A DNA stretch of 64,000 bases. Source: Tridacna crocea (Eukaryota > Mollusca > Bivalvia > Cardiida > Cardiidae). Both the position numbers and the translations under genes were made by a program. The notes under the pieces were generated by a model that saw only the letters and a list, made by a program, of their open reading frames with translations, was not told the origin of the DNA and ran no database searches. Below are positions 18,601 through 49,898 of the stretch, in pieces. The stretch covers positions 59,570,962 through 59,634,961 of the forward strand of contig OX031062.1 of assembly GCA_943736015.1 (NCBI GenBank). The letters are read 5' to 3'. Within the stretch, counting starts at the first letter, position 1. Each line of letters begins with the position of its first letter.

Positions 18601-21600
18601 ATTTTCTCCTTTTCCCACTATGTATTCTAAAGGTTTCTTTCTCAGGGTTGTCAAAAGAAGGGATTAAGTGGTAATGGGTTTATGTTATTGTATCTTTTTA
18701 TCTTTTGCAGATGATTTTATAGCCCTAGCAAACGACAATCATTTTTCCATTTCTTTTTTGACCCAGTGTAAAAAGTGATTTTATGAATATTCAAATAACA
18801 ACAATTGTTTATTTCAACATAAAAGTTGCACTTACTACAGTATTTCAAAGTGGCACAAACTTATTCTCATTAACCCCTACCACACAATAACGACTTTTGA
18901 GGACTCTGAGGTAGAAGCCTTTTGAAAGCACTGTGGGAAAAGGAGAAAATGCTGGTTACCTGCATTTTCTCCTTTTCCCACAATGTTTTCTACCCTTTCC
19001 AAATCAAATTTCAATTTTTGATTTAAATTTATTTTGTTGTCTGCAAATGCTTTCAATTTGGACTTGGCCAAAATTTTGAAGGTTGGTAAAAAGTTAAAAA
19101 ACCATCCCATTACTTTAGCTACTTTTAATTTGTGATATGCAAATGTCTTCAGTTATTCAATTACATATTATATGTAAAAAATGATAATTTGTATCCTAGT
19201 TTAGACATTTCTTTCTATTAACTTCTTCAGCTAAACCAAGGTGGATTGCGAAGCCAAAGAAAGTAGACGCTGGTGTGGAAGAGAGTGCCACATTCAAGTG
19301 TGAGGCCGAGGGAAGACCAGAGCCTAAAATACAATGGTTGATAAATGGTCAACCCATTGGAAGTAAACCTATTTTTTAGTCTACTTTTCTTATGATCTAC
19401 TAACTTTTATAACCCATTACCACACAATCCCTACTTTTGATGACCCTGAGAAGGAAGCCTTTTGAAAACATTGTAGGAAATGGAGAAAATGCTGGTAACC
19501 AGCATTTTCTCCTTTTCCTACAATGTTTTCTACCCGTCTCAAAACAAGTTTTATTTTTTGAGTCATTTTTAACTCCTTACCACACGATAAAAATTAGACT
19601 GGTCCAAATTGAAAGCATTTGCAGACGACAAAATAAAGGTGACTAAAAAATAGAAATTTGTTCTGGGAAGGGTGGAAAACACCGTGGGAAAAGGAGAAAA
19701 TGCTGGTTACCAGCATTTTCTCCTTTTCCCATGGTGTTTTCAAAAGGCTTCTTTCTTAGGGGCGTCAAAAGTAGGGATTGTGTGGTAATGGGTTAATTTA
19801 TCGTCTGCAAATGCTTTCAGTTTGGACAAGCCTAAAATATTGTCGTTTGGTAATGAGATAATGTTGAATAAAAGTGATGAATAGGACTTTTTCTTCCTTG
19901 AAAGAAGTTTAACTCTTTACCACACAATCCAGACTTTTAATGACCACCCAAGGAAGTAGCCTTTTGAAAACATTGTGGGAAAAGGAGAAAATGCCGGTAA
20001 CCAGCATTTTCTCCTTTTCCCATAATGTTTTCTACCCTACTATAGACAGAAATCATTTGGGTTACATTCAATTTGTCGTCTGCAAATGTTTTCAATTTGG
20101 ACCAGTCTAAAATTCTGTCATTTGGTAAAGAGTTAACTGAGATGATTGTGTGCCTAGTTATTACAAAAATATTTATCTGACACTGTAGATTTAAAATCTA
20201 ATCTTAATTTATACTTATGGCAAAATATGATTTTTTTACATACAACTTCCTTACCCACAGACCTGGTATGGATACGAACATATGAGAAAAGTAAAGGAGC
20301 AGTTGCTTTAAACAAGTGATGATCAATTCTATATCCCAAGATTATTTCCCTAGTGTTTAAAATCGTGTTTGTCATTTTTCTTTAACCCTTTACAACATAA
20401 TCCTGATCTTTAATGATCTTAGTGAAGAGTGCTTTGAAAACATTGTGAGAAATGGAGAAAGTGCTGTTTACCAACATTTCTTTCTCTTCTCAAAATATTT
20501 TCTACCCTTTTACAGGTAAATCTCACAATTATGGCTAAATGTAGTTTGTCCTCTGCAAATGCTGTTAATTCGGGTTTGTCCAGAATTTTGTTCTTTTGTA
20601 ATAAATGATATTATTGTCTGATTTATAATTTTGAATGCTTTTACTTGTTATCTGGTAAAGTGGTTGGTATAATTATGGATTTTTTGCCCAGAATACTCTA
20701 AGGTGTTGGCAATTATAGATCTTTTCAACGCAGTTCTATGAATGAAGCCTTTTAAAAATATTGTGGAAAAAAAAGGAAATGCTGGTAACCAGCATCTTCT
20801 ACTGTTCCATGAATAGTTTCAATCCTTTTTACCCTTTACCAAACAATGATGACCTTGAGGAAGAAGCCGTTTGAAAACATTGTTGGAAAAGGAGAAAATG
20901 CTGGTAACCAGCATTTTCTTCTTTTCCCGCAATCTTATCTACCCTTCCCATCCCGAATGTCAACTTTTGAGTTACATTATTTTTTTCGATCGCAAATGCT
21001 TCCCATTTGGACCAGTCTAAAGTTTAGTTGTGTGGTAAAAAGCTGAAGACAAACTATTGATAGCAATGTAGTCCTGTTGAAATTACTAGCAAATGTACTC
21101 TGTATGATTATCTTTTACTAGATTTAACTCTGAATAAAAGAAGACAACTGTCAGGGGACAGCAGCAGGTTGCAGTTTTTCAATCTGAGCAGGGACGATGC
21201 ACAAGTTGTCCAGTGTAATGCGTCTAATTCTCATGGATACCTTTGGGCTGATGTGCCTCTGAGTATTCTAGGTACTTTGATTTTTTTTTTCCAGTACTGT
21301 ATACTCTCTATGGAGAAGGTGAAATTACAACATGGCATTTTACCATTTTGTGGTAGATCCTATTTTGCGCTATTCTATTGTCATTTACTACAAAATCTCT
21401 AATCTGGCTGTAAATTTTATTGGGCTAAGTTTATAATCACAGAACATAAGTCATCTTTGTGAGGTTTTTGCAATGATTGTTACAATCTTGTCAAAAAGAA
21501 ATAACCAGGTTCTCTACCTGCTCATGCAAAGATAAGTAAAAAAATGAAAAAAAATTATTAACTCTTTAGCACTCGATTGTGTGGTGTCCTTGGCTGTGAG

Positions 21601-24600
21601 GTAGAGCGTCAGCCTTGTAAGGTCCTGAGTTCGAGACCCAGGAGCGCGTGTCAACTTTGGGATTTTTCATTGGTCCACACATTCGGTGCGAGTACTGGTG
21701 TATTTCCCAGGAACCAGAATCAAGAGAGATTATTGTAAGATGTTAGAACTTGTTTCTGAATCGATGTAAAATAAATAAGTTTAAACTTAAACCACTCAAT
21801 CCTGACTTTTTACAACCCTGAGAAAGAGGCCTTCTGAAAACATTGTGGGAAAAAGAGAAAATGCTGGTAACCAGCATTTTCTTCTTTTCCTACAATGTTT
21901 TCTACCCTTCCCAAAACGAATTTTTATTTAGAGCCACATTTATTTTGTCATCTGAAAATGCTTATAATTTGGACAAGTCTACAATTTTGTCATTTGAGTT
22001 AATCTATGAAGCACAGGTATTAAAGATGTCACATATAGATCTAGGGTGGTCTTTTTTATTCATACACCATTATTTTCTCACTCTTTATCACATAGTGCAA
22101 AGTTTTAACAGCCCTGAACAAAAAGCCTTATGAAAAAATTGTAGGAAAACAAGAAAATGCTGGAAACCAGCATTTTCTCCTTTTTGAACAATGTTTTCTG
22201 CTATATTCACCCTTTCCCAAACAATCCCTGGTTTTTACAGGTCTGGAATAGTAGCCTTTTGAAAACATTAAGGGAAAAGGAGAAAATGCTGATAACCAGC
22301 ATTTTGTCCTTTTCCCACAATGTCTTCTACCCTATCATAGACGGAAATCAGCAAGAGTTGAATTGTCGTCTGCAAATGCTTTCAATTTAGTCTAGTCCAA
22401 AAATTTGTCGTTTGGGAAAGGGTTAACCCTTTCCCAAACAAGCCCTGGTTTTTACGTGTCTGAAGTAAAAGTCTTTTGAAAACGCTGTGGGAAAAGGAGA
22501 AATTGCTCGTAACGAGCAATTTCTCCTTTTCCCACAGTGTTTTCTACCTTTTTTGAGAACTTTCTGCCTCCTTTTCCCACAGTGTTTTCTACCTTTTTTG
22601 AGAACTTTCTGCCATTTTCTTCAAATCTAAAATTGTTGTCTGCAAACTCTTTTGGTTTGGAAGGGTCCAAAATTTGTCGTTTGGGAAAGGGTTAAACAAA
22701 GATATAATCATTTGAGCGATGTTTAATTTTTTGTCTGCAAATGCTTACAGTTTAGTCGAGTCCAAAGTTTTGTTGTTTGGTACTGAGTTAACCTGATTAA
22801 TTTCCTGAGCATAATTTTGTGCTTTACTTTTTCATATAGCCTACAAACCAGAAATTAAAGCCCAGTTTACAGAGGTGAAGGTCGCAGCAGATAAGGATGC
22901 CCTGTTGCCCTGTCATATTGACGGAAAACCAACTCCCACTATCTACTGGAAAAGGGAAGGACTTAAAATGGAGGGACCTAGATATGTTATGGATCCAAAT
23001 GGAAATCTTAAAATAAAGGTATGTTTGTAAAAATAATACGAAAAAAAAATCATCAGCCAAGTTTACGATCACTATGTGGATCTTACCTTGGCTGATTGAG
23101 CCTGATTTCGAGATTCTTGCGATGCGCCCTCTATTGGATGCTGGTTATTACTCCCCTTTGCATCATGTTTCTAAAACCAAATGAACTATCGTTTTACGAA
23201 ACGCTTACGAAAACACATGAAGCGATAAGCAGACATCCACGTGGGTTTCTATGTTTTACCTTTTATTCGAAAGGTAGAGACCTTGTTCTATTTTTATCAA
23301 AGATGAAATGCTAGAGCTAGCTGCATCCAATGAAAAAGCGTATCAGGTGATCGTAAAAATCAAACTCGATCCGCCAAGGGTAGAGTAACGTAGTGAATCG
23401 TCGGCCTTGGCTTGCGAAGATTGTCTACTGGTGACCCAATCATCAAACAATGTTCAGCAATGAGTAAAGATTAAATCCTGTCGAAACAACTGTAATCAGA
23501 CCTTGAAAAGCTTGCCTGAGTTACAGACCAAGCTACACTTGGGTTTAACCTATTACCACACAATCCCTACTTTTGACAACCCTAAGAGAGAAGCCTATAG
23601 AAAACATTGTGGGAAAAGGAGAAAATGCTGGTAACCAGCATTTTCTCCTTTTTCCACAATGTTTTCTACCCTTCACAAAATGAATTTCAAACTTTCAGTC
23701 ACTTTTATTTTGTCGTCTGCAAATGCTTTCAATTTGAACCAGTCTGAAATTTTGTCGTGTGGTAATGGGTTAAGCATTGGCATGTTTACTAAAGGCATAA
23801 ACAAAGATGTTTACAGTTTAACCCTTTACCACACAGCAAAATGTTAGACCTATCCAAATTGAAAGCATTTGCAGACAACAATTTCAAATTGGCTCAAATG
23901 GTGCAATTTTGCCTTGATAGGGTAGAAAACATTGTGGGAAAAGGAGAAAATGCTGGTTACCAGCATTTTCTCCTTTTCCAACAATGTTTCAAAAAGGCTT
24001 CTTTCTCAGGGGCGTCAAAAGTAGGGATTGTGTGGTAATGGGTTAATATTTCTCTTACACAGGAGACAGTGCAGGATGACTCAGGAAGGTGGACATGTTT
24101 TGCTGAGAACAGATATGGTAAACTGAATTCCAGTGGAATACTGACTGTGAGAAGTAAGCTAATATCTAATATTATTTGCTTCAGTACCAGAGAAATGGTG
24201 CTTTTTTATACCCATGTGGGGAACATTTTTTTTAAACCCTTTACTCCATATATACTCATTTCTACGCATTGCTTGTAGGAGCCTTTGGAAAACAATGTGG
24301 CAAAAGGTGAAATTGCTCGTGACGAGCAATTTCACCTTTTGCCACAATGTTTTCTACACTACCAAAAGTGTGATAATACACAGAAGAAACGGCTTTATCC
24401 TTGCTGATATTTAGGGTCAGTTAGAGACACCATAGAAATGCCTTATTGGGTAAAGGGTTAACTCTTCACCACACAATCTGGGGTTTTGCGACCCTTGGAG
24501 AGAAGCCTATTGAAAACAGTGTGGGAAAAGGAGAAAATGCTGGTAACCAGCATTTTCTCCTTTTCATACAATATTTCCTACCCTGTTAAAGATAAATACC

Positions 24601-27600
24601 ATCACTTCAGCTTTGTAAATGCTTTATGTTCGGACAAGTCTAGAGTTTAATCATGTCATAAACAGAACATGGTGAGAAAATCAGGAATTAATTTGTTAGA
24701 ACTTGTTCTATTGCCCACATCATGCAAAAAGATTTTCCCTTGCCTTCATATATTACCTCAAAGTGTTTTAGGAAAAGGAACAGTTGCATGTAACAGTTAT
24801 TCTTTTTGCCCCAGTAATTTTGATATCATCTGAAACAGAAATTATCTATTCCTGTATATATGCTTCTGTCTGGAACTTGTTCTAATAACTGGTTTGTTGA
24901 ATTCTTTACCACACAGTCCCGACTTTCAATGACCCTTAAAAAGAAGCCTTTTGAAAACATTGTGGGAAAAGGAGAAAATGCTGGTAACCAGCATTTTCTC
25001 CTTTTCCCACAATGTTTTCTACCCGTCCCAAAACAAATTTTAATATTTTAGTCACATTTAATTTGTCCTGTGCAAACGCTTTCAATTTAGACTAGTCTAA
25101 AATTTTCTTGTTTGGTAGAGAGTTAATTCTTTACCACTTTACAAAATTACTTGTCCAGATTGAAAGAGTTTGCACAAAATAAAAGTGACTCAGAAATTGA
25201 AATTTATATTTGAGAGGTTAGAAAACATGGTGGGAAAACAAAAAAAATGATGATTACCAGCATTTTCTCATTTCTCCACAATATTTTCAAAGTCCATTTC
25301 TTCTTTAGGGTTGTTTGACTCTTTTACCAAACGACAAATTTTTACACTGGTCTAAATTGAAAGCATTTGCAGACAACAAAATAAATGTAACTGAAAAACT
25401 GAAATTTATTATGGGAAGGTTAGAAAACATTGTGGGAAAAGGAGAAAATGCTGGTTACCAGCATTTTCTACTTTTCGTACAATGTTTTCAGAGGGCTTCT
25501 TTTTCAAGGTTGTTCAAAGTCGGGATTGTGTGGTAAAGAGTTAAAGTTGGGAATGTATGGGAAAGGTTAAAAAATACAGTTTGTTAACTGAATTGACACT
25601 AAGAACTTATATGGTGATAATTATAGGAAAGACAAAGATTGTTCAGCCGCCTTCTCCATCACTAAGATCTATCCAGCAAGGCAACAATACTCATCTTGTG
25701 TGTAATGCTGAAGCAGACCCCAATGAGACACTTGTCATCACCTGGCTTCATAATGGAAAAGAAGTCAACTTTGCAAAAAATCCGCACTGGGAACAGGCAC
25801 CAGATAATGGACTGATCATAAAGAATGCAACTAGTAAAGAAACAGGAAATTATACATGTGTGGCCTCAACAGAATTAGATTCTGATACAGCAAGTGCTCA
25901 GCTTAATGTTTATGGTAAGTGACAGCATCTTTGGATTAACAGTTTTCTCTACTGCCATTTTGAATATCTAGGGCTTTCAATCTCCCAGGAAAATTTTTTC
26001 TCACAAATCAAGTTTTTTTCATCTCATTTGGCATACCAAGGTGATGGGAGCCATCTTATCCCTTTGCTGTATCTGGTGGATTGATATGTGTCAGATTGAT
26101 CCATTCATGGCCCGGAAATATGCCAGTTTACTGTTCTGAAAATTGTAATGCTCCTCTTACAAAAGAAAACTTTCCGATTGAAACTTTCACCGATAAATAG
26201 ACAGATGTGAATAACTTCATTGAGGTTGTTTATATCGTTGCTAAACTACTGTCAGTGGCGCGCTACATGTATAATCATGTGATTCTCATTTTAAAATGGA
26301 AATCTCTATGAAATCGACGAGGTTAGATGTAGGTATGGAATCAGCCAAGTTGTGACGAGTGACACTATCTATCACTCTACCTTGGCAAATCACCAAAACC
26401 TTCTTGAATTGTAAAGTTACGGACACTCACAACCTTATGATAATTTACAATTATTCCTTAACCCTTTACCAAACTATCCTGAATTCTAATGGGCCTGTGA
26501 AAGACATTTTGTAGGAAAAGCAGAAATGTTGATGACAAGCAATATCTACTTTTCCTTACTCGTCCCTAAAAAAGACAAATTCAAACATTTGAGCCACATT
26601 TCCTTTGTTTTCTACAAAATTTCATACTATTAATTGTAGAAAGACAGCAGTTTTTCATCTTCTTAAGAATGAGCTGTTTGTGTGAGGCACAACTGCTTAA
26701 CAATTTTAAAGATTTTCTAGTGTAGACTAATTGAACTTAACAATGGTACACCATGGGCTACATATATCTCAGGATGGAAATGGACAGTAAGCGAGGACAC
26801 TGTAAAAGTACCAAAATAAAATAACAAAATTTCAGAATTGTCCAAATTTAAAAACTTGCAGGTGACACCTTAAATTATCTTTGGAAGGGAAGAATACATT
26901 GATAGAAAAGGGGAAAATGCTTGTTGTGAGCATTTTTTTCTTATGGCCTTTTTCTCAGGATTGTTAAAAGTTAAGATTGTGCGGTAAATGGTTGATAAGC
27001 TGTCATGAAAGACTTTGATTCTAATGTCATTTTTTTTAACATTCTAGCCCCCCCTGAACCTCCCACAGCCATCAGTATTACTAAATGTGGGAATCGAAGT
27101 GCCACCATATCATGGACACCTGGCTTCGACAATTTCCTTTCCATCCGAGAATACAGAGTGGAGTATAACCATTCCTATAACAAACAGTGGAGGGTTGGTG
27201 CTGTGGTTAGTGGCCCGATGAAAACAGAGGCTAGTGTAAAGTTGTCCCCCTTTGCAAATTACACATTCAGGTTAGTAGAGTTGTTATTGTTAGAGGAAAT
27301 CTTTATTGAAGTCTTAACCAAACAACCAAAATTTTAGACTTCTTCAAATTGAAACCATTTGCAGATGACCAAATAAATGTGACTAAAGAATAGAAATTGG
27401 TGCTGGGGAGGTTAGAAAATATTGTAGGAAAAGGAGAAAATGCTGGTAACCAACATTTTCTCCTTTTCCTACAATGTTTTCAAAGGATTTTTTTCATAGG
27501 GTGGTTAAAAGTCGGGATTGTGTGGTAAAGAGTTAAGCCATTACCACACAATCCCTACTTTTGAGGCCCCTGAGGAAGAAGCCTTTAGAAAACATTGTGG

Positions 27601-30600
27601 GAAAAGGAGAAAATGCTGGTAACCAGCATTTTCTCCTTTTCCCACAATGTTTTCTACCCTTCACAAAACAAATTTCAAATTTTCAATCACTTTTATTTTG
27701 TCGTCTGCAAATGCTTTCAATCTGGACCAGTCTAAAATATTGTCTATTGGTAATAAGTTAAGCAAAGATTGTGAAGGAGAACTTATTTTATCACATAACA
27801 TCTCATGTTTCTATTTTTACATACCTACTAGGAATTTTCTTATCTTACATATATTGAGATAAGCTTTATGATATGTCATATGGCCTACAATGAGCAAAAA
27901 GAAGCATTCAGACGTTTGCATAAGTGTTGTCTTAGATCAGCCTGCATGGTATGCGCAAGCTAATCTGAGACATCTCACTATGATTTCATAAGAATTTGTC
28001 CTACTGTAGACTTGCACAAAACAGAAAATTACATAAAAATGGAAATTGCCATTTAGGATTAGTCTGAACTAGCTGCACAGGCTGATCTGGGATGATACTT
28101 TAGGCAAATGTCTGGATGCCTCTTTTTCATGGTGCAGACCATTTATGATTTCTTTCTGAATGGCGAATCTGGCTTTATTCATGGAAATTACTACATAATC
28201 TATTTGGCTTTTCGTATTTTGAAATGTAATTTGTGAGATTTTGTTATGTGATAAGAGGAATCTTGACATTACTTGGCTTTTGAGAAAACATCTGATTCGA
28301 CTGGCCTACAAAGATGCAAGAGGCCTGCTTAACATGTTATGTAGACTTTTTTGATAAAATATATCTAGTCTGCCAAAATATGTTAATTCTTATGTATCTG
28401 TTATTTGCTTGTTACAGTCGCAGGTTTACACTTTCAGTACAAAATTCCCGTTTTGACAACTCTGATGAAACAGACCTATTTGATAACAGTGTGAGAAAAG
28501 GAGAAAATGGTGCTGTTAACCACTATTTTCTCTTTTTTCCACATTTTTTTCAACCCTATGCATGACAATTTCATAGTTAAAGCTTTATTCAGTTTGCTCT
28601 CTGCAGGTGGTTTCAATATAGACAAAAAAGTTTCAAGTTTAATTATCTAGTAAAGAGTGAATGCATGATTACATTTGGAAACATGTGGCAAAAAGAGATC
28701 ATCATTAGTAATTCCTCATTTTAACACAGTGTTTTCTTTAAAAGTCTACATGTGACAATGTGGTGATAAACTGATAATTTCTATACATTATGGTGGCTCC
28801 TGTGCAGTGGTTCCTGTCATGTTTTCTTGTGTTCAAAGTTATCCTGGACTTATTATACTAGTCAGTGTTATTATCTGGTACAGAGTTTGCCATGCTGTTG
28901 TTATAATGTTGGTTTGATCATAGAGAGATAGAGGATAATCAACTGGTTGTTTTTGATATGAAAAATATCTCACGAGGATGCGTTGTTAGGCGTTGAAAAA
29001 ACGAGTGCGCAGCACAGTCTAGAAGTACTGGTGAAACCCAGGACAACCATGAGTGTGCTGTCACTTTGATGTGACTTACGGTAACTCTGTACCAAACAGC
29101 AACATTTTAGACTCGTCCAAATTGAAAGCATTTGCAGAAGACAAAGTGAATGTGACTCAAAAAATGAAACTTGACTTCCAAAGAGTAGAAAACATTGTGG
29201 GAAAAGGAGAAAATGCTGTTACCAGCATTTTCTCCTTTTCCCATAATGTTTTCAGAAGGCCTCTTCCTCTGGGTTGTAAAAAACCAGGGATTGTTGAATT
29301 TGGTAAAGGGCTGAATAATGTTAAAAGTGAAGTTCCAGTAAATTACTACAAATACAAACAAATAAAACTTTTATTACTCTGATTATTCATTGTGTTTCAG
29401 AGTCAGAGCTGTCAACCAGAAAGGTGTGAGTCAACCCAGTGAAGTAAGTGTAGAAACTTGTGTCACTGGTAGTGCACCCCCAGATAGTCATCCTACTGGA
29501 GTAGATGTCACTGATTGGTCAAAACCTGGTGTCCTTATTGTCAAATGGAAGGTAGTGTTTCTTTAAACCCCTTTCCCAAACAATCCCTGGTTTTCACAAC
29601 GCTGAGAAAGAAAGCTATTGAAAACATCGTTGGAAAAAGAAATGCTAGTAACCAGCATTTTCTCCACAATGTTTTCTACTCTCAAAATTTCAATTTTTGA
29701 GTCACATTAATGTTGTTATCTGCAAATGCTTTCAATTTGGACAGGTCGAAAATTTTGTTGTTTGGTAAAGAGTTAATATTGTAAGCCATACTCATTTTCT
29801 GTGACATTTAGATAGTAGATTTATGTTTTTCACTAAAAGGTCGCATTATAAGTTGTACGGTCAGGTGGCAGGGGACTTGGAAACTTGATCATGGCTGTGG
29901 TGAATCATGTTGCCCTGAGCCAAAGGCAGGTGAGTGCTCAGTACAGGTGCATTTCATTGCCATAATTGCCTTTTCTGGGAACTCTTTGTATATTTGAATA
30001 ATACAGATTGCTTGCATAATGGAGGTGGCCACCGTGACAGATTTTTATTATTAAAAATAGGTCATAGTCAGTGTATTTATTGTATATGTTACTAGTAATT
30101 TCTGCTCTTCACTGTGATTATACCCCTGTAAAACAAATGTTTTTGCGGGTATACTGGAATCAGCCTGTCTGTCCTTGTGTCGGTCTGTGTGTCTGTTCGT
30201 GTGTCTGTCTGTGTACAAAATACTGTCAAAGCGCTGGTGGGGTGGTATAAAGTTACAGCTCTAGTTAGAACTTGGGATTGGTCTGTAAATGTTTAAAGTT
30301 TTATTTTTTTTTTTTTCCTTCCACCAGCCTATGCCAAAGATAAATCACAATGGAGATGGGTTCAAGTACATCATTCACATCAAAAAGGATGGGAAGACCA
30401 ACAGTACGACAATATCTGATTGGAGAACCAATAGGAAAGAGTTTAACTTTGGAACTATATTCGAGCCATACGAAGTTTATGTTGAGGCTAAGAATGATGT
30501 TGGTGTGTGTAATCATATTGCGATATTACACACAGGATACACTGGTGAAGCAGGTCTGTATGATAAATAGAGTTTATTTCATCAGCTTGTGGTTAATATG

Positions 30601-33600
30601 GGGAAATATTTGCCGAAAAAGGGAAAGGTATTTGGAAATAACGAGTGCAGTGCCATAAGGCACAAGTTATTTTCACAGACCTTTCCTTTTTAAGGCAAAT
30701 ATTTTCCCATATTAACCACAAGCTGATGAAATAAATGAAACATTATATTTCCTCTGATTATTTTGTCGACGAATGCCACTTTAAAAACTAGTGATCTCAA
30801 GTCAATTAACTAGATTTTTGGCTGGAGGAAAATATTCTCTGTGATGGGGAAATGATCCCCCACCCCCTACCTTAAATGACATAACATTTCTAAAAATAGA
30901 CACATGAAATATAATATATGAGGATAATGAACTGGTTTTGTGTGATGCTAAAAATCTGTCACTAGAATGGGGTGGAAAACGAGTCTGCAGGACCAGTCTT
31001 TTAACCTTCTTAAACCACATTCCAGCAGAAACAGAAATGCTGGAGTTTGAGAGAAATAGTAAAAAGGTAGTTCTGGCAAATGTTCTAAAATAATATCATT
31101 ATTAGTGGTGATACCATATCATCACTAGTGATATTCACTGTGATATCCTGAAACTATGATATTGAAATCCTAGTAATTCACTGATGAGAATATAATGATG
31201 AAAATTAGTGTATAAATCTTGGTTTTCATTATACCCCCGCAAAACAAATGTTTTCGGGGGTATTATGGAATCAGCCTGTCTGTCTGTGTGTCCCTCCGTC
31301 TGTCTGTCCGTCCATCCTTGTGTCTGTCTGTGTACAAAATACTTGTAATTTTGTGTCGCGAACTCCTCCTACAGTTTTCCTTCAATTTTATTGAAACTTT
31401 TCACATATACCGATCATATATAGAAGATTTGCAAGATACAACTTTGAAGTGTCAACTCTTCCTAGTTGAGGAATTATCTGCCCTTGAACTTGACCCTTTT
31501 TTCTGTCAAAGCGCTGGCGGGGGTATTAAGTCACATTCAGTTACAGCTCTAGTTTAGCAAGATACTATTTTGATTTTGTAGAACCACTGGTGGTACCTAC
31601 TAACTTTGAGCTGGTTCCTGACCGTAATGTCACAGCCACCTCTGCCTGGGTCCAGTGGGATAAAGTGGACACCTCCCCTGCAGCAATGAGAGGACAATTT
31701 AGAGGTTACATGGTAAGGTTTCACTTCAGTGCTGTATGAAGTATCAAGTTTACTAAGCTGGGCCATGTATCACAAATAATGAAATTAAGTCTCTTATTAA
31801 CCCATTACCACACAATCCCTACTTTTGACGCCCCTGAGAAAGAAGCCCTTAGAAAACATTGTGGGAAAAGGAGAAAATGCTGGTAACCAACATTTTCTCC
31901 TTTTCCCACAGTGTTTTCTACCCTTCCTAGGACAAATTCCTATTTTTCAGTTACCTTTATTTTGTCGTCTGCAAATGCTTTCAATTTGGACCAGTCTAAA
32001 ATTTTCCCGTGTGGTAAAGGGTTAAATTTTTGCTTTTAAGTCTTTACAAAGCGAAAGTATTTTAGGCTTGTCCAAATTGAAAGCATTTGAGGACAGAAAA
32101 AATAAATGTGACTGAAAAATGGAAATTTGTTTTAGTAAGGGTGGAAATATTGTGGGAAAAGGAGAAAATGCTGGTTACCAGCATTTTCTCCTTTTCCAAC
32201 AATGTTTTCTCTAGGCCTCTTTCTCAGGGTCATTAAAAGTTTGAATGGTTTGTTAAAAGAGTTAACCCTTTACCAAATTTTAGACTGGTCCAAATTGAAA
32301 GCCTTTGCAGACGACAAAACGAATGTGACTAGAATAAAAATTTGGTCAAGGAAGGGAAGAAAACACTTTGGGAAAAAGGAGAAAATCCGGGCACCAGCAT
32401 TTTCTCCTTTTCCCGCAATGTTTTCAAAAGGCTTCTTTCTCCTGGTCGTCAAAAGTAGGGATTGTGTGGTAATAGGTTAATCTGTTCTTTACAGGTGCTT
32501 TCCTAATGGACAAGTATAAAATGTTATCGTCTAGTATAAATGGACCTCTGAATTTTCTGTTGTGCAGATACGATTCTGGCATGAAGGAGAAAAAGACACA
32601 ACTATGAAAGAAGTGTTTATAAAACGTGAGCCTCCTAAAGATCCGAGGCTGAAACGCAGGAAGAGAAACAATAAAGACATGGCCGAGTTGACTGCGCTTC
32701 CCCCATACTCCTCCATTGAACTGGATATGGTGGCCCTAAACATGAATTACGAGTCCAACTCCAGCAACGAGATCAATATAACAACACCAGAAGGAGGTAA
32801 GTGCTTCTTGGGTAATTTTAATTAATTCAATGCTGGGAACATACCCCTAGATTATACCCAGCACTTTCTCCTTTTTCCACAGTGTTTTCTACCCTTTCCA
32901 GAAGAAATTTCAATTTTTCAGTCACCTTTAATTTTTTGTCTGCAAATGCTTTCAATTTGAACCAGTCTAAAATTTTGTTGTTTGATAAGGAGTTAAATGC
33001 TTCGTTTTACAATAGCTTCAAGTGCAGTTCCAAATATCAAACCCTTGAAGTGCCTTTCACTGGTGCTGTGGCCCTTTTGGACAGTGTTTTTAACTCATTA
33101 CCAGATGACAAAATTATAGATATTTCCAAATTGAAAGCATTTGCAGACAACAAAATTGAAGTGGCTCAAAAATTGAAATTTGTTTTGGGAAGGAAAGAAA
33201 ACATTGTGGGAAAAGGAGAAAATGCTGGTTACCAGCATTTTCTCCTTTTCTCACAATGTTTTCAAAAGGGTACTATTCCAGACCTGTAAAAACCAGGGAT
33301 TGTTTGGGAAAGGGTTAATTAATATCAGACTGCTTATCTTTGACCTACAGTATCGCTTTTGCTGTAACACTATAGACAAAAGGGTAGACACTAAATTGCA
33401 TTTATCTGGTTCTTTTTGTAATATGAAACTATCCATCTGAGTTATTGAGGCTGTAAGTGTTAAAAAATCCTTGCCCGAACAATCTCGGCATTTCCTAATA
33501 TTCCTGCAATGTTTTCCGAACTAATTGGAGGTACATTTTATTTGTAGTCTGTCAGTGCTTTCAATTCAGACAAGTCTACAATGGTAAAGAGTTACTGATT

Positions 33601-36600: not shown

Positions 36601-39600
36601 AAACAGAAATGATTCCTCTTTTACACCTTAACCCTTTACCCCATGGTATGGTATCTCTAATTCACCCTAAATAACAGCAAGGATGAAGCGGTTTTTTTAT
36701 GGGTATATGACACCTTTTGATAGCATAGAAAACATTGTGACAAATGGTGAAATTTACCCCACAATGTTTTCCAAAGGCTCCTACAAGCAATGCGTAGAAA
36801 TGAGTATCTATGGAGTAAAGGGTTAACTCTTTACCAAACAACAAAACTGAAGACTAGTTCATATTGAAAGCAATTTGTAGAAGACAAAATTAATGCGAGT
36901 CAAAAATTGGAATTTGTGCTGGGAAGGCTGGGAAACATTGTGGGTAAAGGAGAAAATTCTGGTTACAAGCTTTTTTCTACTTTTTCAATAATGTTCTCAA
37001 AAGGCTTCTATCTCAGACTCGTAAAAACCATGGATTGTTTGGTAAAGAGTTAATTTGTTTGACTCTATATGAGAAAGCAGCCAGTGGCTTAACATACATC
37101 ATATTGACTGTTATCTCTTGACATAATTACAAGATTTGGGACTTTTCCAAATTAGATTGTGCAGATGACAAATTTTATGTAGCTCAGAAGATTGTTTCTT
37201 TGAAAGGTATAAAAACATTGTAGGCAAAGAAAAAATGTTGGTTACCAGCATTTTCTCATTTGCCCACAATGTTATCAAAAGGCTTTCTCCACAGGGTCAT
37301 TGATGGACTGGAAGGTAACCAGTGAGGAACGGCTGAACAACTGGAAGAACATCTCAGACCTCCAGCCTAGTACTACGTATGAAGTTATGGTTGTGGCCAA
37401 AGCCAAACAATATGAACAGGCTAGTGAATTGAAACAAGTTACAACATTTGGAAATAGTAAGTATGATTAAATCTGTGCCACCATCACAATTTTTCAGACT
37501 TATCCAAAGTATTTGCAGACAAAAAAATCAAAGATGGTGGAAATGACGGTGGATGTCCTGTTATAGAGTACAAAACAGTGTTGGGAAAGGGAAAAAAAAT
37601 GTTAGTTACTAGCATTTTCTCTTTTTCCCTCAAATGAAAGTAAACAAACAAGGTTCTCATAGTTTTTCTTTTTCTGCCAAGTTAGTAGTCACTTGTGTTT
37701 GGGTAAAATCAGTGGATTGAACTGGATTGGGATTGAACTTAATAACTGGAATGAGCTGGCAGAACTGGAATGGACTCAAACCTGAATTTTACAATTTTTC
37801 TTCAACCTTGTATAAACCAACCAAGCTTTATCTTAACTGTAGCTATTTATTTCAAATTTGCTAATCTGTCAGTGCTTTCAGTACTTTGATTATTAGTTTT
37901 GGTGCATTTCTTAACTCATTACCACACGAGAAAATTTTAGACTGGTCCAAATTGAAAGCATTTGCAGATGACAAAATAAAGGTGCCTGAAAAATAGAAAT
38001 TTGTTCTGAAAAGGATATAAAACACTGTGGGAAAAGGAGAAAATGCTGGTTACCAGCATTTTCTCCTTTTCCCACAGTGTTTTCAAAAGGTTTCTTTCTC
38101 AGGGGCGTCAAAAGTAGGGATTGAGTGGTAATGGGTTAATTAACCATACAATCCTGAGTTTAAATGACCATGTGGAAAAAAGACTTGAAAACATTGCAAA
38201 AAAAGGAAAAAAATGCTAGTAACCAACATTTTTACTTTTCCCACAGTGTTTGCTAACCTTTGGGTTCAGGCCCAATGTTTTTGGGGGTTTTTTGGTCTTT
38301 TTTTCCTTTTTTTGCATCATGAATTTTTAATATATGCTAGCCAAAAAGTAAAATCACAACCATTAGAGTGATTCCAGGCCCTCAAGGTCCTCAAGTTTTT
38401 CATATCTTTTCAGTTGCTCCATCGGTCAATAAAGATGTAGGGATTGCATCATCCACATGGTTTATTCTGATGATGGTTGCCATAGCAATTTTAATAGTGT
38501 TCCTAATTGTTGTCTGCTTTATCAAGAGAAGCAGGGGAGAAAAATATAATGGTAAGACTCTAAAAATATCTGGAATATATTATTTTCAACTCCTTTTTTT
38601 TTCCACCAGATTTAGAGATTATTTCCTGAGAACAGGAGGGGCATTCAATAAATAATGCCCCTGACATACTTCCAGTTGTCTGATCTAGCTGAAATTTTGC
38701 ATGTGTAATGATTTATATCTCTATGGTTAATGTGGCAAATTACAGCTCTGAACTAATTGTGGTTTCTGATTTTTTTAGGTGTTTGAATGAGTCAGGTATG
38801 TGACTGACATCTAATAGAAAAATGAGTAAAAATTACTTTTTGTAACCCAATGGTCATTCAAATTCTAGCACAGACTTCCGGCCATGTTTGAATTTACGAT
38901 GCCAGCATTTTACAAGATCATATGATGGGGCATTATCACCATAAGTGACTTTAATTTCATCAAAAGTCTCCTGTGGTGTGCGACACTCAACAGGCTCCCA
39001 TTTAACAACTGACTCAGTTCAAACACTTGTGAATCAGAAACCACAATTAGTATGTATGAACAAAGAAAAAAATGATGTAAAAACATGCATATGTAATTGA
39101 TTTTTACTCTTAAACGGGCAACAAAATTTAAGACTTGTCCAAAATGAATGCATTTGCAGACGACAAAATAAATGATACTGAAAAATTAGAAATGGTTTTG
39201 CACAGGGCAGAAAACATTATGGGAAAAGGAGAAAATATTTTCTCATTTTCCCAGGATGTTTTCTGAAGCTTTAATCCTCGGGGTTGTTAAAAAATCAGAT
39301 GGTTTAGTAATGGGTTTCACTCATTACCAAAGGGCAATATTTTAGGCTTGTCCAAATCGAAAGCATTTGCAGACGACAAAATAAAAGTGACTGAAAATTT
39401 GAAATTTATTTTGTGAAAGGTAGAAAACATTGTGGGAAAAGGACAAAATGCTGGTTACCAGCATTTTCTCCTCTTCCCACAGTGGTTTCTAAAGGCTTCC
39501 TTCTCAGGGTTGTCAAAAGTAGGGATTGTGTGGTAATTGGTTTAAAAAGGAAATAGTGTTAAATTATATTACCTAACATTTCAACAACTCTCGTAGATAT

Positions 39601-42600
39601 TACAATATGTTTGTTAGGTATTTGGTGCATTCTTCATATCTGTTGTCTTAATTTCATTATGACTTGTACATTTTCAGTACAAGAGCGTGAAAAACTTGGA
39701 GGGACGGATCCTGAAGTCCCAGAAAAAGATCTCTTCAATGAGTATCCAAAAAGGTAGGCAGAAACAAAGACATTTTTAATTCTCAGCTATACAAATGAGC
39801 TGTACTCTGTGAAAAAGGGGGTTGTTTATCCCTTTAACAGACGACAAATTTTGGACTCTTCCAAACCGAAAGAGTTTGCAGACGACAATTTTAGATTTGG
39901 AGAAAATGACAGAATGTTCTCAAAAAAGGGTGAAAAACACTGGGAAAAGGAGAAATTGCTCGTAACAAGCAATTTCTCCTTTTCCCACAGTGTTTTCAAA
40001 AGACTTTTACTGCAGACATGTAAAACCAGGGCTAATCTGGGAAGGGATTATCCCTTTACTAGACTGCAAAGGTGTAAACAGAATTTTCCTCTTTTGAAAG
40101 AAACAATTACATGAACAGCTTACTTGTAATAAGAAAAAGATTAATTACCTTAAACTCTATACAAAACTACAAAATTTTCGACTGGTCCAAATTGAAAGCA
40201 TTTGCAGATGCTATTCTAGCATGACTTAACCCTTTACTCCATAGATACTCATTTCTACGCATTGCTTGTAGGAGCCTTTGAAAAACATTGTAGCAAAAGG
40301 TGAAATTGCTCGTCACGAGCAATTTCACCTTTTGCCACAATGTTTTCTACACTATCAAGAGGTGTCGTTTACACGTAAGAAATGGCTTCATCCTTGCTGT
40401 TATTTAGGGTCAATTATAGGTACCATAGAAATGCCTTGTGGGGTAAAGGGTTAAGAATTGAAGTATATTTCCAGTAGGGAAGAAAACATTGTGGGAAAAG
40501 GAGAAAATGCTGGTTACCAGTTTTCTCCTTTTCCCACAAAGTTTTCAAAAGGCTTCTATGTCAGGGTCATAAAAACCAGGGATTGTTTGGTAAAGGGTAA
40601 ATGGTTATCATAATCATAAACACTTGTACTTTTGTAAGAATTTTCCTTCTTCATACATCATGTAGGGTTTTTCCTGTGTGCTCATCTTCAATAATTCTGT
40701 ATTCATCTTTTTTAATTTTTTTTTCCAGTCATGAATCAGTAGCAAAACATAACAGGATCTATCTATAATTATGGCTTGCAACACACGAAAAGTGGCAATC
40801 AGACATTTGTGTAAACTGTCGTCTCTGATCAACCTGCACAGTCTTCGCAGGTTAATCCGATACAGCTGTATACATTTTTGCGTAATTTTCTGTTTGCACA
40901 AGTCTACTGAACAACAAGATCCAATGCAGACATAAAGTGCCATCTCGGATTATCCTGTGCGGACTGCGCAGGCTAATCCTAGACAATACCTTATGCAAAT
41001 GTTCGAATGCCCCATTCGGCATGTTTACAAGCCATATCATAGTTTGTGTTCATTTTACTGCCACCTTAATATGAGTTAGTAGAATTTTCTGTGTTACATT
41101 TGTGATTTTATTCTTATTTTTAGATTTGACCATCCATATTTTTATGAGTAAGTGTTGTATAAAGTTTATAGTAGCTTTGCCCTATTTCACTACACAACCG
41201 CTTGTTGCGGCTCTCTTTCACCCCTTTACCAGACAGCCTTTTTTTTTTGATGACCCTAGGCGTGAAAACTGTGGAAAACTTTGTGGAAAAAGCAGAAAAT
41301 GCTGGGAATGAGATTTATCTCTTTTTCTTACAATATTGTCTACCCATTTAGAGACAAATCTCGTTATTTTCACCTTTTTTCAATTTTTCCAACAATAGCC
41401 TTTTAAAGGCATATAACTTAATCTGAGACACATTTAATTTGTTTTCTGCTTAGTCATTCAAAATGGACAGGTCTAAAATTTTATCGTCTGGTAAAGAGTT
41501 TATCAACCTTTGAACCTTTACCAGACGACAAAATTTTAGACTGGTCCAAAATGAAAGCACTTGCAGACAACAAAATAAACATAACTCAAAAATCAAAATT
41601 CATTTTCAACCAGATAGAAATCATTGTGGGGAAAAGGAGAAAATGCTGATTACCAGCATTTTCTCCTTTTCCTAACAATGTTTTCTAAATGCTTCTATCT
41701 CAGGATGGTAAAAACCAAGGATTGTTTGGTAAAGGGTGAAAACTGTTGTGATTCCTTTGTCACGAGAGTGGAAAAGGGCACTGCTTGTTACATAGATGAA
41801 CCATCCTCTTTGAAAAGGTGTATGATACACCTACAAAAGTATTGACTTGTATCAGCCTGTGTAATGCAGACACACACACACCCTCCCCTTTTCCCACAAT
41901 GTTTTCTGCACTATCAAGGGAAAATTGGACCAATTGAGCCAAATTGAAATTGTTGTCTGCTAATGCTTTCAATTTTGACAAGGCTGAAATTTTGTTGTCT
42001 GTCAACCCTTTACCAATCAATGCCTGGTTTTTATGACCCTGAGGAGGAGGCCTTTTGAAAAAATTGTGGGAAAAGGAGAAAATGCTGGAAACCAGCATTT
42101 TCTCCTTTTCCCACAATTTTTTCTACCTACCCTCCCCCCCCTTTTTCACTACAAAATGAACCATGGGTCATTTCTCTACGTAGAGGAATGACCTGGGTCT
42201 TTCCTCTACATAGAATAATGACCCGGGTCATTTCACTACGTAGAATAATGACCCAGGTCATTTTTCTACGTAGTGAAATGACTTTTGGGGTCATTTCTCT
42301 ACGTAGAATAGTGACCCAGGTCATTTTGTAGGTGAGGGTCATTTCTCTGCATTACACCTGCACGGACTGGGTAGGCTGACCTTGATCAAAACTATTTGCT
42401 ATTTGTGAATGTTCTGTATGTCCAGGGACCATTCTACCTCATGGTTCAGTTGGCTGTTGGACAAAATGGATTAACTCATTACCAAACGACAAAATTTTAG
42501 ACTGGTTCAAATTGAAAGGATTTGCAGACGACAAAATAAACATAACTCAAAAATTGAAATTTGTTTCCAGCTGGCTAGAAAACATCGTGGGAAAAGGAGA

Positions 42601-45600
42601 AAATGCTGGTTACCAGCATTTTCTCCTTTTCCCACAATGTTTTCAAAAGCTTTCCTTCTCAGGGTCGTTAAAAGTCGGGATTGTGTGGTAAAGAGTTAAA
42701 TGGATGCACTGCTTGGCATAATACATCACAGAGATGTACTTAACCCTTTACCACACAATCCCAACTTTTAACGACCCTTAGGAAGAAGCCTGTAGAAAAC
42801 ATTGTGGGAAAAGGAGAAAATGCTAGTAACCAGAATTTTCTCCTTTTCCCACAGTATTTTCTACCCTATCAGAAATCAGAAATCATCATATTAACAAGAA
42901 ATAATTTGTTGTCTGCAGATGCTTTGAATTTGGTCCAGTCCAAAAATGTGTCATTTGGTAAAGAGTTAACTCATTACCACATATTCCAGACTTTTAACGA
43001 CCCTGAGAAAGAAAGCCTTTGAAAACAGAGTAGGAAAAAGAGAAAATGCTGGTAACCAGCATTTTCTCCTTTTCCCACAGTGTTTTCTACCCATTCGAAA
43101 TCAAATTCACATTCGCCTTTGATTCACATTTATTTTGTCGTCTGCAAATGCTTTCAATTTGGATTGGCTCTAAATTTCGTCATTTGGTAAAGAGTTAAGC
43201 ACCGTTCAAAGAATTTGGCTCATTTATTTTAGCTTTTCATTTCTTTTTTGCTGCAAGATATATCACTGCTTTAAGTCATCATTATGGAGAAAGTTTGTTT
43301 ATTGGCTTGAAATTTGAATTGAAGGATAATACTGTGGCCTTCTGGAAAATGGCGTCCAGAAAACTAAGATGTTTAACACATTACTGTACAGGTTGCATAG
43401 AATTGCCCAAAACTGTTATCTACTTCATTTAACCTGACCCAGGGCAAGATTATTTACATGAATTAATATTCTATTTTTACCAGTGGTATTGCTCAGTTCA
43501 GAATAGTATCAGGAATATTTTGTGTGGTTTACGCGAATCAACTCCTAACTTACTGGATACGTAATTGAGACTTTCTGGTCAATAGTGAAAAAAGCCAATA
43601 TTGCACTTTCAAAGTTATTTTTTGGGAGAAATATATTCTCTCCAGTCAGTGAAGATCCAAGATCAGACTGCACATTTTGTACAGTCTGATCTAGATCTTA
43701 ACTGACTGCAAATGCGCCTTAACTCATTACCAAACGACAAAATTTTCTCCTCTTCCCACAATGTTTTCTACCCTTCACAAAACAAATTTCAAATTTTGAG
43801 TCACTTTTATTTTGTCGTCTGCAAACCCTTTCGATTTGGACAAGCCTAACATTTTGTCGTTTGGTAATGAGTTAAACAACCTTGAAATTAGCATAAAGTA
43901 TTAGGGGGGTCAATTTAACTAATTTAACCCATTACCACCACAATCCCTACTTTGGACGCCCCTGAGAGAAAAGCCATTTGAAGACATTATGGGATAAGGA
44001 GAAAATGCTGGTAACCAGCATTTTCTCCTTTTCCCACAATGTTTTCTACCCTTCACAAAACAAATTTCAAATTTTCAGTCACTTTTATTTTGTTGTCTGC
44101 AAACGCTTTCAATTTGGACCAGTCTAAAATGTTGTTGTCTAGAAATGGGGTAAATGTTCATTTCTTTCTCTCTGTTCACAGGGTGATGGGTAATTCTTCT
44201 GTTTCATATTAGCACCTGATACTCATTTAGAGCAGTTTGCTTGTTATTACAGCATTTCTTTTTATGAGCTTTTGTATGTATAGAACATTTTGATCAAATT
44301 TATAAATTTCTTTAAAGGTTGTGACTGAACTTCCTCTTTTGAAAGATAGGAAACATTGTGGAACACGGAGAAAATGCTGATTACTATTATTTTCCCCTTT
44401 TCCCGCAATACAAGTATTTTTGTCCCCGATCAAAGACAAGTACCATTACTATAGCAACATGTAACTGGTCTGTAAATACTTTCTAGTCTAACTTCATTGT
44501 AATTTTTTCCATTTTTGAATATTTTCCATTTTTTTTCATGTTATGACTCATTAATTTTACATGTACACATATTTATTGCATTTTGGTGATGGGATAGCTT
44601 AGATATTAGGCTGTTTTACTAATTGTATGTAGTTGCTTTAACATTCACACATACAGTACAACCTGTATTCAGAGACCACTCAAGGGAAGTACTAAAAGTG
44701 GTCTCTTACAGCAGGTGGTCTTTAAATACAGGTTATTAGGTTAATGTAAGAAGGGTTGTTGTGTCACAACAGTGGTCTCTTAAACCAAGTGGTCTCTTAA
44801 CACAGGTGGTCTCTTAATACAGGTTTAACTGTATATACATGTACAGCTTTACTGGTTTCTTTAGCCCTGTACTACGCAATCCACAGTTTGAACAACTTGA
44901 GGAATTAAATGTTTGAAAACATTGTGTGTCGTGCCCATTTATCTCAGTCGGTAGTGTGTAGGACTTGAAAACAGGGGGTCAAGGGTTCGATTCCTGGCTA
45001 TGACTTTCATGAGTGGTCAAGTGCAATAGAAGCTTCACTCTTTACCACACAATTGTGTCTTTTAAGCCTTTACCACACAATGATGACTTTTGACGACCCA
45101 TAGGAAGAGGCCTTTTGAAAACTTTGTGGGAAAAGGAGAAAATGCTGGTAACCAGCATTTTCTCCTTTTCCCACAAAGTTTTCTCCTCTATCAAAGAAAA
45201 ATTGCATCATTTGAGCCACTATGAAATTATCCTCTGCATACACTTTTGAGTTGGATAGGTTTAAAATTCTGCTGTGTGGTAAAGGTTAATCACCTTGGGG
45301 AAAAAAGAGTTTTTGAATAGGAAAACAGGAGAAAAAGCAGGTATCATCATTTTCTCTTTTTTCCCCCAATGTTTTGTTTTTCAACCCTATCATAGGTAAA
45401 TCTGACCATTTGAATGAAGTTTAATTCGTCATCTGTAAATGTTTTGAATTTACACCAGTCTAAAATTTTGTTGTTTGCTTGAGTTGACTCATGCCCACAA
45501 GACAAAATTAAACTTATATTAAGTATAGAAATTATATCCCAAAAGATATCTTTGAAGTACCGATATTTTTGTTTATACTATTGAAGTGAAAATTTCATTT

Positions 45601-47602: not shown

Positions 47603-47831
47603 TTAACCCTTTCCCAAACGACAAACTTTTGGACTAGACCAAATTGAAAGCATTTGCAGACGACAATTCAACTCTTGCTGAAAAAATGATTTCTGTCTTT
47701 GATAGGGTAGAAAACATTGTAGGAAAAGGAGAAAATGCTGGTTACCAGCATTTTCTCCTTTTCCCACAATGTTTTCAAAAGGCTACTATTCCAGACCCGT
47801 AAAAACCAGGGATTGTTTGGGAAAGGGATAA
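47603..47831 (-). mobile_element. TTAA-MITE subfamily D
   Basis: TTAACCCTTTCCCAAACG to GTTTGGGAAAGGG. Near-identical to 53315-53543. Confidence 0.9.
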
Positions 47832-48152
47832 GTCTTGTAGTTCTTGATGAACAATGCAGAGTTTTAACAATCCTTTTGAAAAAGTGTTTGAAAACACAGT
47901 GAAAACTGGTAAAGGATTGACTCACACCTCCAGAAGGCAATTATCTTCTTCCTTGCAACAGATTGCATTTGTAAACATCATGGCAAAAAGAGAAATTTCC
48001 CATGAAAAACTTTTTCTCCTGTTTTACCACTATGTTTCCATTCATATTATTGCCATGTTTCCATTTGCATCAATGTATTTGCAGTATTTTTCATTTTTAT
48101 TAATCATTTCTTAAAATATTGCTTTGTCTCAGGAGGTTAAAGTTTAATATTT

Positions 48153-48527
48153 TACCCTTTACCAAACATTCATGTACTTTAACAACTCTGGTTGAAGAGG
48201 GCCTTTGAAAACGTTATGGTAATCACCAATTAAACTCAACTAAATTTGTCGCCTGCATTCAGTTTCATCGCATCCAAAATTCTGTCGTTTGGTATAGAGA
48301 GTGCTCCTTACTGGATGACAAAATTTCAAACTTGTCCAAACTGAAAGCAGTTGCATACAACAGAATTAATACAGTATGCCTCGAATGATTGGTACTGGCT
48401 TTGGCTTTGGAGGGTTAGATACATTGACAGAAAAGAAGAAAATACCAGTACTTTCTTCTTTGCCTCCTATGTTTTCAAAGGCTTTCTTAGGGTTGTTAAT
48501 TCTAGGGATTGCATAGTAAAGGAATAA
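48153..48527. repeat. Decayed TTAA-MITE plus fragment and minus copy
   Basis: 48153-48302 lacks the palindrome. 48303-48527 keeps TGGATGACAAAATTTC and GCATAGTAAAGG. Confidence 0.6.
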
Positions 48528-48954
48528 AGATTGAAGGGTACATTATATCCAGAATTACTAGAAGACTGTTTTTGTGTGTAAAAATTAGTCATCAAAAGAA
48601 TTTCATTCTGTGCAGAGGGAAAATAGGAAGTTTAGTAGAACTTTCCCCAGAATACAAGACATGTTTTTGTTGCCTGGCAACTGTGTAAAATTATGTAACA
48701 GTTCTATACAAATACAGTGTAGATATAGACAAGCCACATGGAATAAAACTTTGTATTTACCATGAACAAAATCAGCATCAGAAAACCAGGAATATTTCAC
48801 TTTCTGTGAAAACTCATTAGTTTTTGTGTGCTTTTGAATGGACAGACAAGGACTGCAGTGCAGTGTGGTGGCAAGGAATTTATCTATAAAAAAGGAGAAA
48901 AAGGATATATACATTTAAATGGATTGAATGTATCTAATACTTGACTTATTGTGT
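48528..48954. other. Unassigned downstream DNA, possibly distal Nrg 3' UTR
   Basis: AATAAA occurs at 48742-48747 and just upstream at 48523-48528. No coding pattern. Confidence 0.35.
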
Positions 48955-49183
48955 TTAACCCATTACCACACAATCCCTACTTTTGACGCCTCTGAGAAAG
49001 AAGCCTTTTGAAAACACTGTGGGAAAAGGAGAAAATGCTGGTAACCAGCATTTTCTCCTTTTCCCACAGTGTTTTCTACCCTTCCCAGAACAAATTACAA
49101 TTTTTCAGTCACCATTATTTTGTCATCTGCAAATGCTTTCAATTTGGACCAGTCTAAAATTTTCTTGTGTGGTAAAGAGTTAA
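48955..49183 (+). mobile_element. TTAA-MITE A, complete
   Basis: Arms CACTGTGGG/CCCACAGTG; TTAACCCATTACC to GGTAAAGAGTTAA. Confidence 0.92.
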
Positions 49184-49252
49184 GTAGTGTTTAACCACAA
49201 AGGCAACTTGACTTATTGTGTTTAAGTAGTGTTTAACCACAAAGGCAATGAG
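49180..49252 (+). repeat. Short tandem duplication beside a TTAA-MITE
   Basis: AAGTAGTGTTTAACCACAAA occurs twice, about 42 bp apart. Confidence 0.75.
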
Positions 49253-49460
49253 AGAGCTCATCTCTTTAATACAGATTCAGTGAAAGGACACTGTAAAATT
49301 TGACTGGAATAGTTGTGTACTTTTAAGTCTGCTTCAAAGTATAAAATGCCGCATTCCTTGTTGTTGTTGTAACAATGTTGTTGTAACACGTAAAGCATTC
49401 CACCCAAGTTTTTGGGACAGTGCTTTTTCAGACTAGATGATAGATCTGGATCTAAGATGT

Positions 49461-49898
49461 TAACCTTTTTACCAGATAACAAAATTTTAGCCTTGTCCAA
49501 ATTGAAAGCTTTTGCAGACAACAAACTGGGTATGGCTGAAATGGTGCAATTTCTCTTTCACCCATTACCACACAATCCCTACTTTTGCGGCCATTGAGAA
49601 AGAAACCTTTTGAAAACACTGCAGGAAAAGGAGAAAATGCTGGTAACCAGCATTTTCTCCTTTTCCCAAAGTGTTTTCTACCCTTCCCGGAACAAATTTC
49701 AATTTTTCAATCACCTTTATTTTGTCATCTGCAATTGCTTTCAATTTGAACCTGTCTAAAATTTTGTTGTGTGGTAAAGAGTTAAAAGGGTAGAAGACGT
49801 GTGAAAAGGAGAGAATGTTGGTTACTAGCATTTTCTTTTTCTCCCACTGTGTTTTCAAAAGGCTTTTCCCAGGGTCGTTAAAAGTTGTCACTGAGTTA
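49461..49898 (-). mobile_element. TTAA-MITE A split by a nested copy
   Basis: The left part runs TTAACCTTTTTACC to GGTGCAATTTCTC. After the insert, AAAGGGTAGAAGACG to CTGAGTTAA completes it. Confidence 0.82.
49557..49785 (+). mobile_element. Nested TTAA-MITE A
   Basis: TTCACCCATTACC to GGTAAAGAGTTAA inside the preceding copy. Confidence 0.87.

Follow-up and report, generated by a model that had tools for sequence, protein, structure and literature searches.

Paired base changes in the central palindrome of a putative piggyBac-like element of Tridacna crocea and their likely origin in symmetric source copies

A stretch of 64,000 nucleotides of the Tridacna crocea genome (contig OX031062.1, positions 59,570,962-59,634,961, listed here as G000:C7; the window) is crowded with copies of a short TTAA-ended element that carries a central palindrome, in a genome of 1.05 Gb and 31 contigs. 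The question raised by this locus is why, in separate copies, a base change in one palindrome arm is matched by the complementary change in the other. The explanation that we consider probable, though not strongly so, is that symmetry is kept in the source elements, that inserted copies decay neutrally, and that rare hairpin-templated strand switching supplies some of the paired changes. In particular, paired variants are inherited from founders in CACTG/CAGTG copies, in most CTTTG/CAAAG copies, and in the consensus sequences of families B and C; after insertion, the two arms of a copy mutate separately, with one-sided changes dominating and paired changes at chance level in the oldest copies.

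Judged from its sequence, the element appears to be a piggyBac-like miniature inverted-repeat transposable element (MITE) of about 229 bp. A 229-position model yields 158 non-overlapping matches, covering 43% of the window, and the palindrome occupies model positions 56-122 (67 bases, with 33 pairs, numbered by k, around a single centre base). Across 73 full-length window copies, TTAA lies within 2 bp of both ends in 46, of one end in 20, and of neither in 7, compared to 4.2% per end at random positions. A candidate uninterrupted relative was found for 25 of the 97 sampled copies that have TTAA on each side; among the 14 candidates inspected, those of 33913-34141 and 45806-46033 are clean empty sites with a single TTAA, while the remaining 12 are weaker and several are abutting element ends. 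The MITEs of piggyBac have short terminal inverted repeats (TIRs) starting CCY after TTAA. The ends of families A, B, and C all have this form, with TIR tips at both ends of TTAACYCWTTACCA in A, TTAACCCTTTCCCA in C, and TTAACCCTTTAC in B; the commonest left and right ends of family A are unlike at one or two positions. In the window, full-length copies lie end to end in nine pairs (for example, 35595-35822/35819-36048), many sharing about one TTAA, which suggests insertion at element ends. Further, in 24 stretches of 10 kb whose coordinates were fixed in advance (L005-L028, 240 kb), 222 model matches cover 15.1% of the sequence, varying from 0 to 48% per stretch. The TTAA ends, the short TIRs, the single TTAA at two clean empty sites, and a length too short for a transposase gene are shared with non-autonomous piggyBac elements; in contrast to these, the present element has a 67-bp palindrome common to families with unrelated arms and makes up 15% of the sampled genome. 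Exact palindrome cores were absent from a viral contig collection and a genome contig collection, and a tRNA search found none.

Every paired variant named in the first-pass annotation, made from the window's sequence, is present. CACTG/CAGTG (k26, T-A to C-G) occurs in the A copies at 231-459 (minus strand; a perfect palindrome at about 338-404), 37911-38139 (minus; palindrome about 38019-38083), and 48955-49183 (plus; about 49010-49076); CTTTG/CAAAG, a paired transversion at k27, occurs at 45062-45286 (plus; about 45117-45183); AAATTG/CAATTT (k28, C-G to A-T) occurs at 42004-42127 (plus; model positions 3-126); and GTAGG/CCTAC (k22) occurs at 19410-19572 (plus), with a one-sided change, and at 27309-27536 (minus), with several, the flanks of these two copies not being close (27 differences in 88 columns). 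Another paired change, k28 C-G to T-A, stands beside a one-sided change at 1672-1905 (plus), and the copy at 46948-47176 (plus) has a perfect consensus palindrome that folds as a 33-bp hairpin. The pairs are therefore real, but the generalization that the arms change together came from a list holding matched cases only. When all A-type copies with at least 50 of the 67 palindrome columns are counted (126 of the 158 matches qualify, and 11 of B or C type are set aside, leaving 115), there are 485 one-sided, 35 concordant double, and 28 discordant double changes. Across all ages and with k26 included, the excess of concordant doubles is small, with 35 observed where permutation predicts 26.2 (P = 0.03).

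The concordant excess is concentrated in young copies. A combined sample of 400 matches yielded 236 A-type copies with 60 or more palindrome columns, after 29 of B or C type were set aside; right arms were permuted inside bins of similar decay, excluding k26. Copies with 0-3 changes hold 9 paired changes where 2.9 are expected (P = 0.002) and 4 discordant ones where 3.7 are expected; with 0-4 changes, the counts are 14 versus 4.4 paired and 8 versus 5.6 discordant. The paired count is 9 versus 7.4 in copies with 7-9 changes and falls to chance level, 33 versus 32.3, in the oldest copies with at least 10. The window alone behaves similarly, with 6 versus 1.3 paired and 0 versus 1.9 discordant at 0-3 changes, and 11 versus 15.3 paired at 7 or more. 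The rows for 0-6 changes (25 paired) and 4-6 changes (16 paired) were not used, as five paired changes in each come from units of one array and inflate them; the rows for 0-3 and 0-4 are unaffected. That array, L015:1-10000, consists of near-identical tandem units of about 1,852 bp, five of which hold a scored MITE palindrome. Since the oldest copies are at chance, paired change is not accumulating in old copies. This bears on the proposal that arms are continuously copied from each other by hairpin-templating in all copies, as the main cause of covariation; the excess in young copies (9 versus 2.9) is what it would predict, and the chance level in the oldest is not.

The tree of copies, built from flanks only, gives a second view of the same changes. 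For 83 copies, allowing a double-substitution rate raises the log-likelihood (lnL) from -1498.3 to -1476.0, a gain of 22.3, whereas pairings slid by -3 to +3 columns gain only 0.0-5.0, and a register one base off gains 0.02, which is no covariation. The gain is 17.8 on a tree without TIR columns and 9.5 when B and C are dropped; dropping the CACTG clade as well leaves 6.6, with at most 0.54 for pairings slid by 1-2. Covariation within the TIRs is weak (3.2, slid 0-0.13). With separate rates for internal and terminal branches, the independent model reaches an lnL of -1485.3 and paired substitution -1452.4; the best fit (-1424.9) comes from a model in which pairs broken on internal branches are quickly restored or compensated. 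Reconstruction under the paired model places 5 paired and 2 one-sided changes on internal branches, and 225 one-sided, 15 paired, and 6 discordant changes on terminal branches, 4 of the 15 paired being B-family differences in one copy.

Genome-wide counts were made as exact 57-mers spanning k1-k28 on both strands, where repeat counts may be lower bounds. The consensus 57-mer has at least 34,027 copies. The k26 CACTG/CAGTG pair occurs in 9,352 otherwise perfect copies, compared to 1,940 with the left change only and 1,615 with the right only; independence predicts about 92. This large discrepancy indicates a large founder subfamily. The annotation was right that independent mutation is insufficient and that either constraint or arm copying is needed. 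Shared descent with chance double hits, involving neither constraint nor copying, was already disfavoured and is highly improbable: it accommodates the membership of 231, 37911, and 48955 in one clade and the chance level in older copies, but not the k26 counts, the lnL gain of 22 against 0-5 for slid pairings, or the consensus differences among A, B, and C, which are all paired.

The three CACTG/CAGTG copies had been presented as separate cases; instead, a single node of the flank tree (support 0.945) unites them, together with 13632, 49560, 19569, 31797, and 32262. In this clade, the copy at 13632-13860 (plus), which the earlier list omitted, has CACTG/CAGTG and one-sided changes; 49560-49785 (plus) has the k26 C-G pair and one-sided changes; 19569-19796 (minus) has an extra paired change at k25 (T-A to C-G) and is altered on one side at k24; and 31797-32025 (plus) is one-sided at k26 (CATTG/CAGTG). 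Overall, the 26 copies with C-G at k26 require 6 parsimony changes, compared to 24.4 when shuffled, and because CACTG/CAGTG tracks flank lineages, it is a founder variant. The k27 CTTTG/CAAAG pair has 207 copies, with 527 changed on the left only; among 20 fetched, 13 fall in the tree block of 45062, 4 in an adjacent block that contains 23818, and the other 3 outside both, requiring 7 parsimony changes. The annotation had named, as the finding that would count against it, a single origin of each paired variant as an old subfamily founder, with no paired excess in recent branches. This largely describes CACTG/CAGTG, which has a few origins rather than one, and mostly describes the variant at 45062, but it does not describe the young-copy excess, a k5 pair that needs 10 changes in 11 copies, or one copy built as arm copying would leave it.

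That k5 pair was chosen beforehand, without having been seen paired. It occurs 13 times, with 272 copies changed on the left only, so that about 2.2 would be expected if right-only copies equal left-only ones, and a mismatched-double control (k5 left with k12 right) occurs 6 times. The 11 of 13 copies that could be placed are scattered over lineages; the 13 include one locally duplicated pair, whose members are 0.006 apart. The data do not support frequent arm copying throughout the copies, since paired changes stand at chance level in the oldest ones and the count for k5 is only about twice that of its one mismatched-double control.

Between lineages, the palindrome is conserved. Palindrome distance between copies stays at 0.057-0.078 across flank distances from 0.050 to 0.218 (the closest bin holds 3 pairs), and it also lies below that of both TIRs from the second distance bin onward. 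Palindrome and flank decay alike among close relatives; among distant ones, the flanks diverge and the palindrome hardly changes. If arms were only copied from each other, the palindrome sequence would be free to drift at the neutral rate, contrary to this conservation. The families extend the pattern. Consensus sequences from chosen copies (6 A, 6 B, and 5 C) show that A and B are alike only at the TIR tips, in the palindrome, and in about 11 bp beside it. Families B and C had been described as replacing both arms wholesale, but their consensus palindromes differ from that of A at only 4 and 3 of 33 pairs (k3, k8, k13, and k20 in B; k3, k8, and k26 in C), all paired, with zero unpaired differences between A and B. 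The B copies lie at 8720-8949 (minus), where TIR tips and palindrome position are A-like and the arms unrelated, with four paired consensus differences, and at 16802-17031, 24232-24462, 34314-34543, and 40225-40454 (all plus) and 58703-58932 (minus); the last two have a complemented centre base (C for G). The C copies lie at 36375-36602 (three paired consensus differences from A), 46474-46699, 52186-52411, and 39827-40050 (centre T for A), all on the minus strand, and at 22423-22650 (plus), where a 45-bp tandem duplication extends into the right palindrome arm. Three of the C copies, at 36375, 46474, and 52186, carry the k26 pair (CAC..GTG) as well.

Direct signs of strand switching are few. 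The copy at L014:7814-7937 (contig C10) has the order L-R'-R: its left arm carries AAA in place of CAT, its first right arm matches this exactly and extends to TTTCTAA, and its second right arm has the ordinary ATG plus an extra C-to-T change. The pairs k26 and k28 are thereby changed at once and the stem is extended by TTTCTAA, which, as we infer, is the trace expected of self-templated copying that then returned at the centre TAA. The window and stretches L001-L028 contain 149 arm clusters, of which 72 are L-R, 38 L, 38 R, and 1 L-R-R, this copy being the sole case. The case is weakened by nine other copies of its 57-mer, all lacking a second arm, with flanks 0.31-0.49 apart. PMC8794818 describes template-switch footprints as several compensatory changes at once, stem extension, and an inverted loop; the simultaneous paired changes and stem extension of the L014 copy are alike, and the centre base of the element is biased to its complement. 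The system treated there is RNA genes, whereas the present one is a transposon family in which paired change mostly looks like founder inheritance. Of 180 A copies, 16 have the complementary base at the centre, versus 3.1 expected from other A:T sites of the palindrome (P = 2e-7), and centre changes are biased to the complement (16 of 24, P = 0.0015); the centre is likewise complemented in B (2 of 6 copies) and C (1 of 5). Complemented centres fall randomly on the tree (17 changes in 18 copies, including B and C types, versus 17.3 when shuffled), and paired changes in young copies showed no significant association with a centre T (3/15 versus 9/126, P = 0.12). In 7 of 113 copies, 5 bp or more are deleted across the palindrome centre; at 60264-60474 (plus), about 16 bp of the centre is missing and the shorter palindrome remains perfect. 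Genome-wide, 3,034 sites combine the outer arms with a middle shortened by 9 bp or more. Continuous arm copying in all copies draws further support from the L014 copy, the centre bias, and the scatter of the k5 and k10 pairs; given the k5 control and the tracking of flank lineages by k26 and most k27 pairs, we regard it as unlikely.

A different route to paired change would be ectopic gene conversion or template switching between copies, moving whole palindromes so that a symmetric donor alters both arms. An identical AAATG/CATTT in ten copies with unrelated flanks (the nine fetched being those 0.31-0.49 apart), the 3 of 20 k27-pair copies far from the main lineage, and a palindrome common to A and B with flanks that are not would all fit such transfer. 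Yet k26 follows the flanks (6 versus 24.4 changes), and the A and B consensus palindromes remain distinct at four pairs, making this a rather improbable main cause. The arms of the AAATGTGGG/CCCACATTT copies mostly adjoin A and T runs.

Pairing would also be maintained if the element were transcribed and its RNA hairpin were under selection, and the RNA of one copy (46948) folds with a very stable -84.7 kcal/mol (z = -10.6). The DNA of the same copy folds as well (z = -9.5), however, and the palindrome element has no Rfam match at gathering thresholds. Moreover, at left-G pairs, right C-to-T changes that keep a G-U pair in the sense RNA (98) are not above left G-to-A changes that break it (106), in a hand sum over copies most of which are probably dead. 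We give this explanation little credence.

Several observations weigh against symmetric sources with neutral decay as a full account. The paired variant AAATGTGGG/CCCACATTT is present in ten copies (L069-L077 and L014:7814-7937) with unrelated flanks, for which founder inheritance does not account; eight of the nine others lie 0.22-0.37 from any reference copy, and L071 lies 0.097 from 47603. Without k26, concordant doubles over all ages number 28 versus 23.6 by permutation (P = 0.17), which also favours descent with chance hits. Reconstruction of internal branches under the independent model gives 4 paired and 6 one-sided changes, so that these counts depend on the reconstruction. One-sided k26 counts probably exceed those that mutation of roughly 1% per site would produce, and unpaired k26 elements may also have spread, or k26 may mutate fast. 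The centre base is not faster when compared to flank A:T sites (16 versus 12.0, P = 0.16), leaving its bias to the complement and its excess over palindrome sites as the features that stand out. The k5 count of 13 versus 6 has one control and is weak alone, and mixed ages would about double its product estimate; an arbitrary k10 pair has a count of 2, a pair count alone.

With these points weighed, symmetry retained in source elements still offers the best explanation. The palindrome would be the conserved core of a TTAA-targeting piggyBac-like MITE, and source-capable copies would retain both its sequence and its two-fold symmetry; because the sources keep symmetry, lineage-founding variants would be mostly paired and inherited by their offspring. 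Inserted copies are presumably dead, and symmetry would be required for mobilization. Most likely, the arms act as two inverted transposase half-sites, or else a hairpin is needed for mobilization. PMC11707139 describes short palindromic repeats of piggyBac to which the transposase dimer binds through two cysteine-rich domains, and paired half-sites are plausible here by analogy. A two-fold symmetric internal site, placed asymmetrically from the two tips, is alike in this element and in the end repeats of piggyBac and piggyBat treated there; the paired cysteine-rich domains of those systems bind short palindromes that are 19 bp long or imperfect, while here there are 33 base pairs in one central copy, with putative binding. 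At a low rate and in single copies, replication may switch strands at the hairpin and copy one arm from the other, producing a paired change in one step. Such switching probably supplies some founders, its rate and role being gauged from one copy with such anatomy. A bolder version, which we consider possible though doubtful, is that strand switching writes the matched changes in one step and that only symmetric copies transpose on, so that its products found subfamilies. If true, the genome's perfect palindromes, which number in the tens of thousands, would form a natural archive of template-switch mutation, with the transfer of the same symmetric variant into old, unrelated copies among its entries.

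The window contains other repeats and genes. A different repeat with a 75-bp near-perfect palindrome has two copies (9123-9311 and 50498-50686; 84% identical), and its outer pair differs in both arms, from AAACCC/GGGTTT to AAACCT/AGGTTT. A foldback element of about 200 bp is present at 30565-30764 and 6338-6530 (88% identical), and a 30-bp tandem repeat with internal dyads AATGACCTGGGTCATT spans 42155-42326. The open reading frame at 12133-12636, and others between 10641 and 38655, resemble exons of an adhesion protein with immunoglobulin and fibronectin domains; for one tested, the best PDB match is to contactins.

Compensatory change in a hairpin is usually read as selection on an RNA. Searches of open PMC texts found no MITE with an internal palindrome, none linking quasipalindromes to transposons, and nothing related to covariation or compensatory mutation in MITEs. 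At least 34,000 identical hairpin copies in one genome make it possible to separate mutation in inserted copies from retention in sources, and could yield a direct rate of template switching in an animal. They also suggest that this extremely successful MITE requires its central palindrome in cis.

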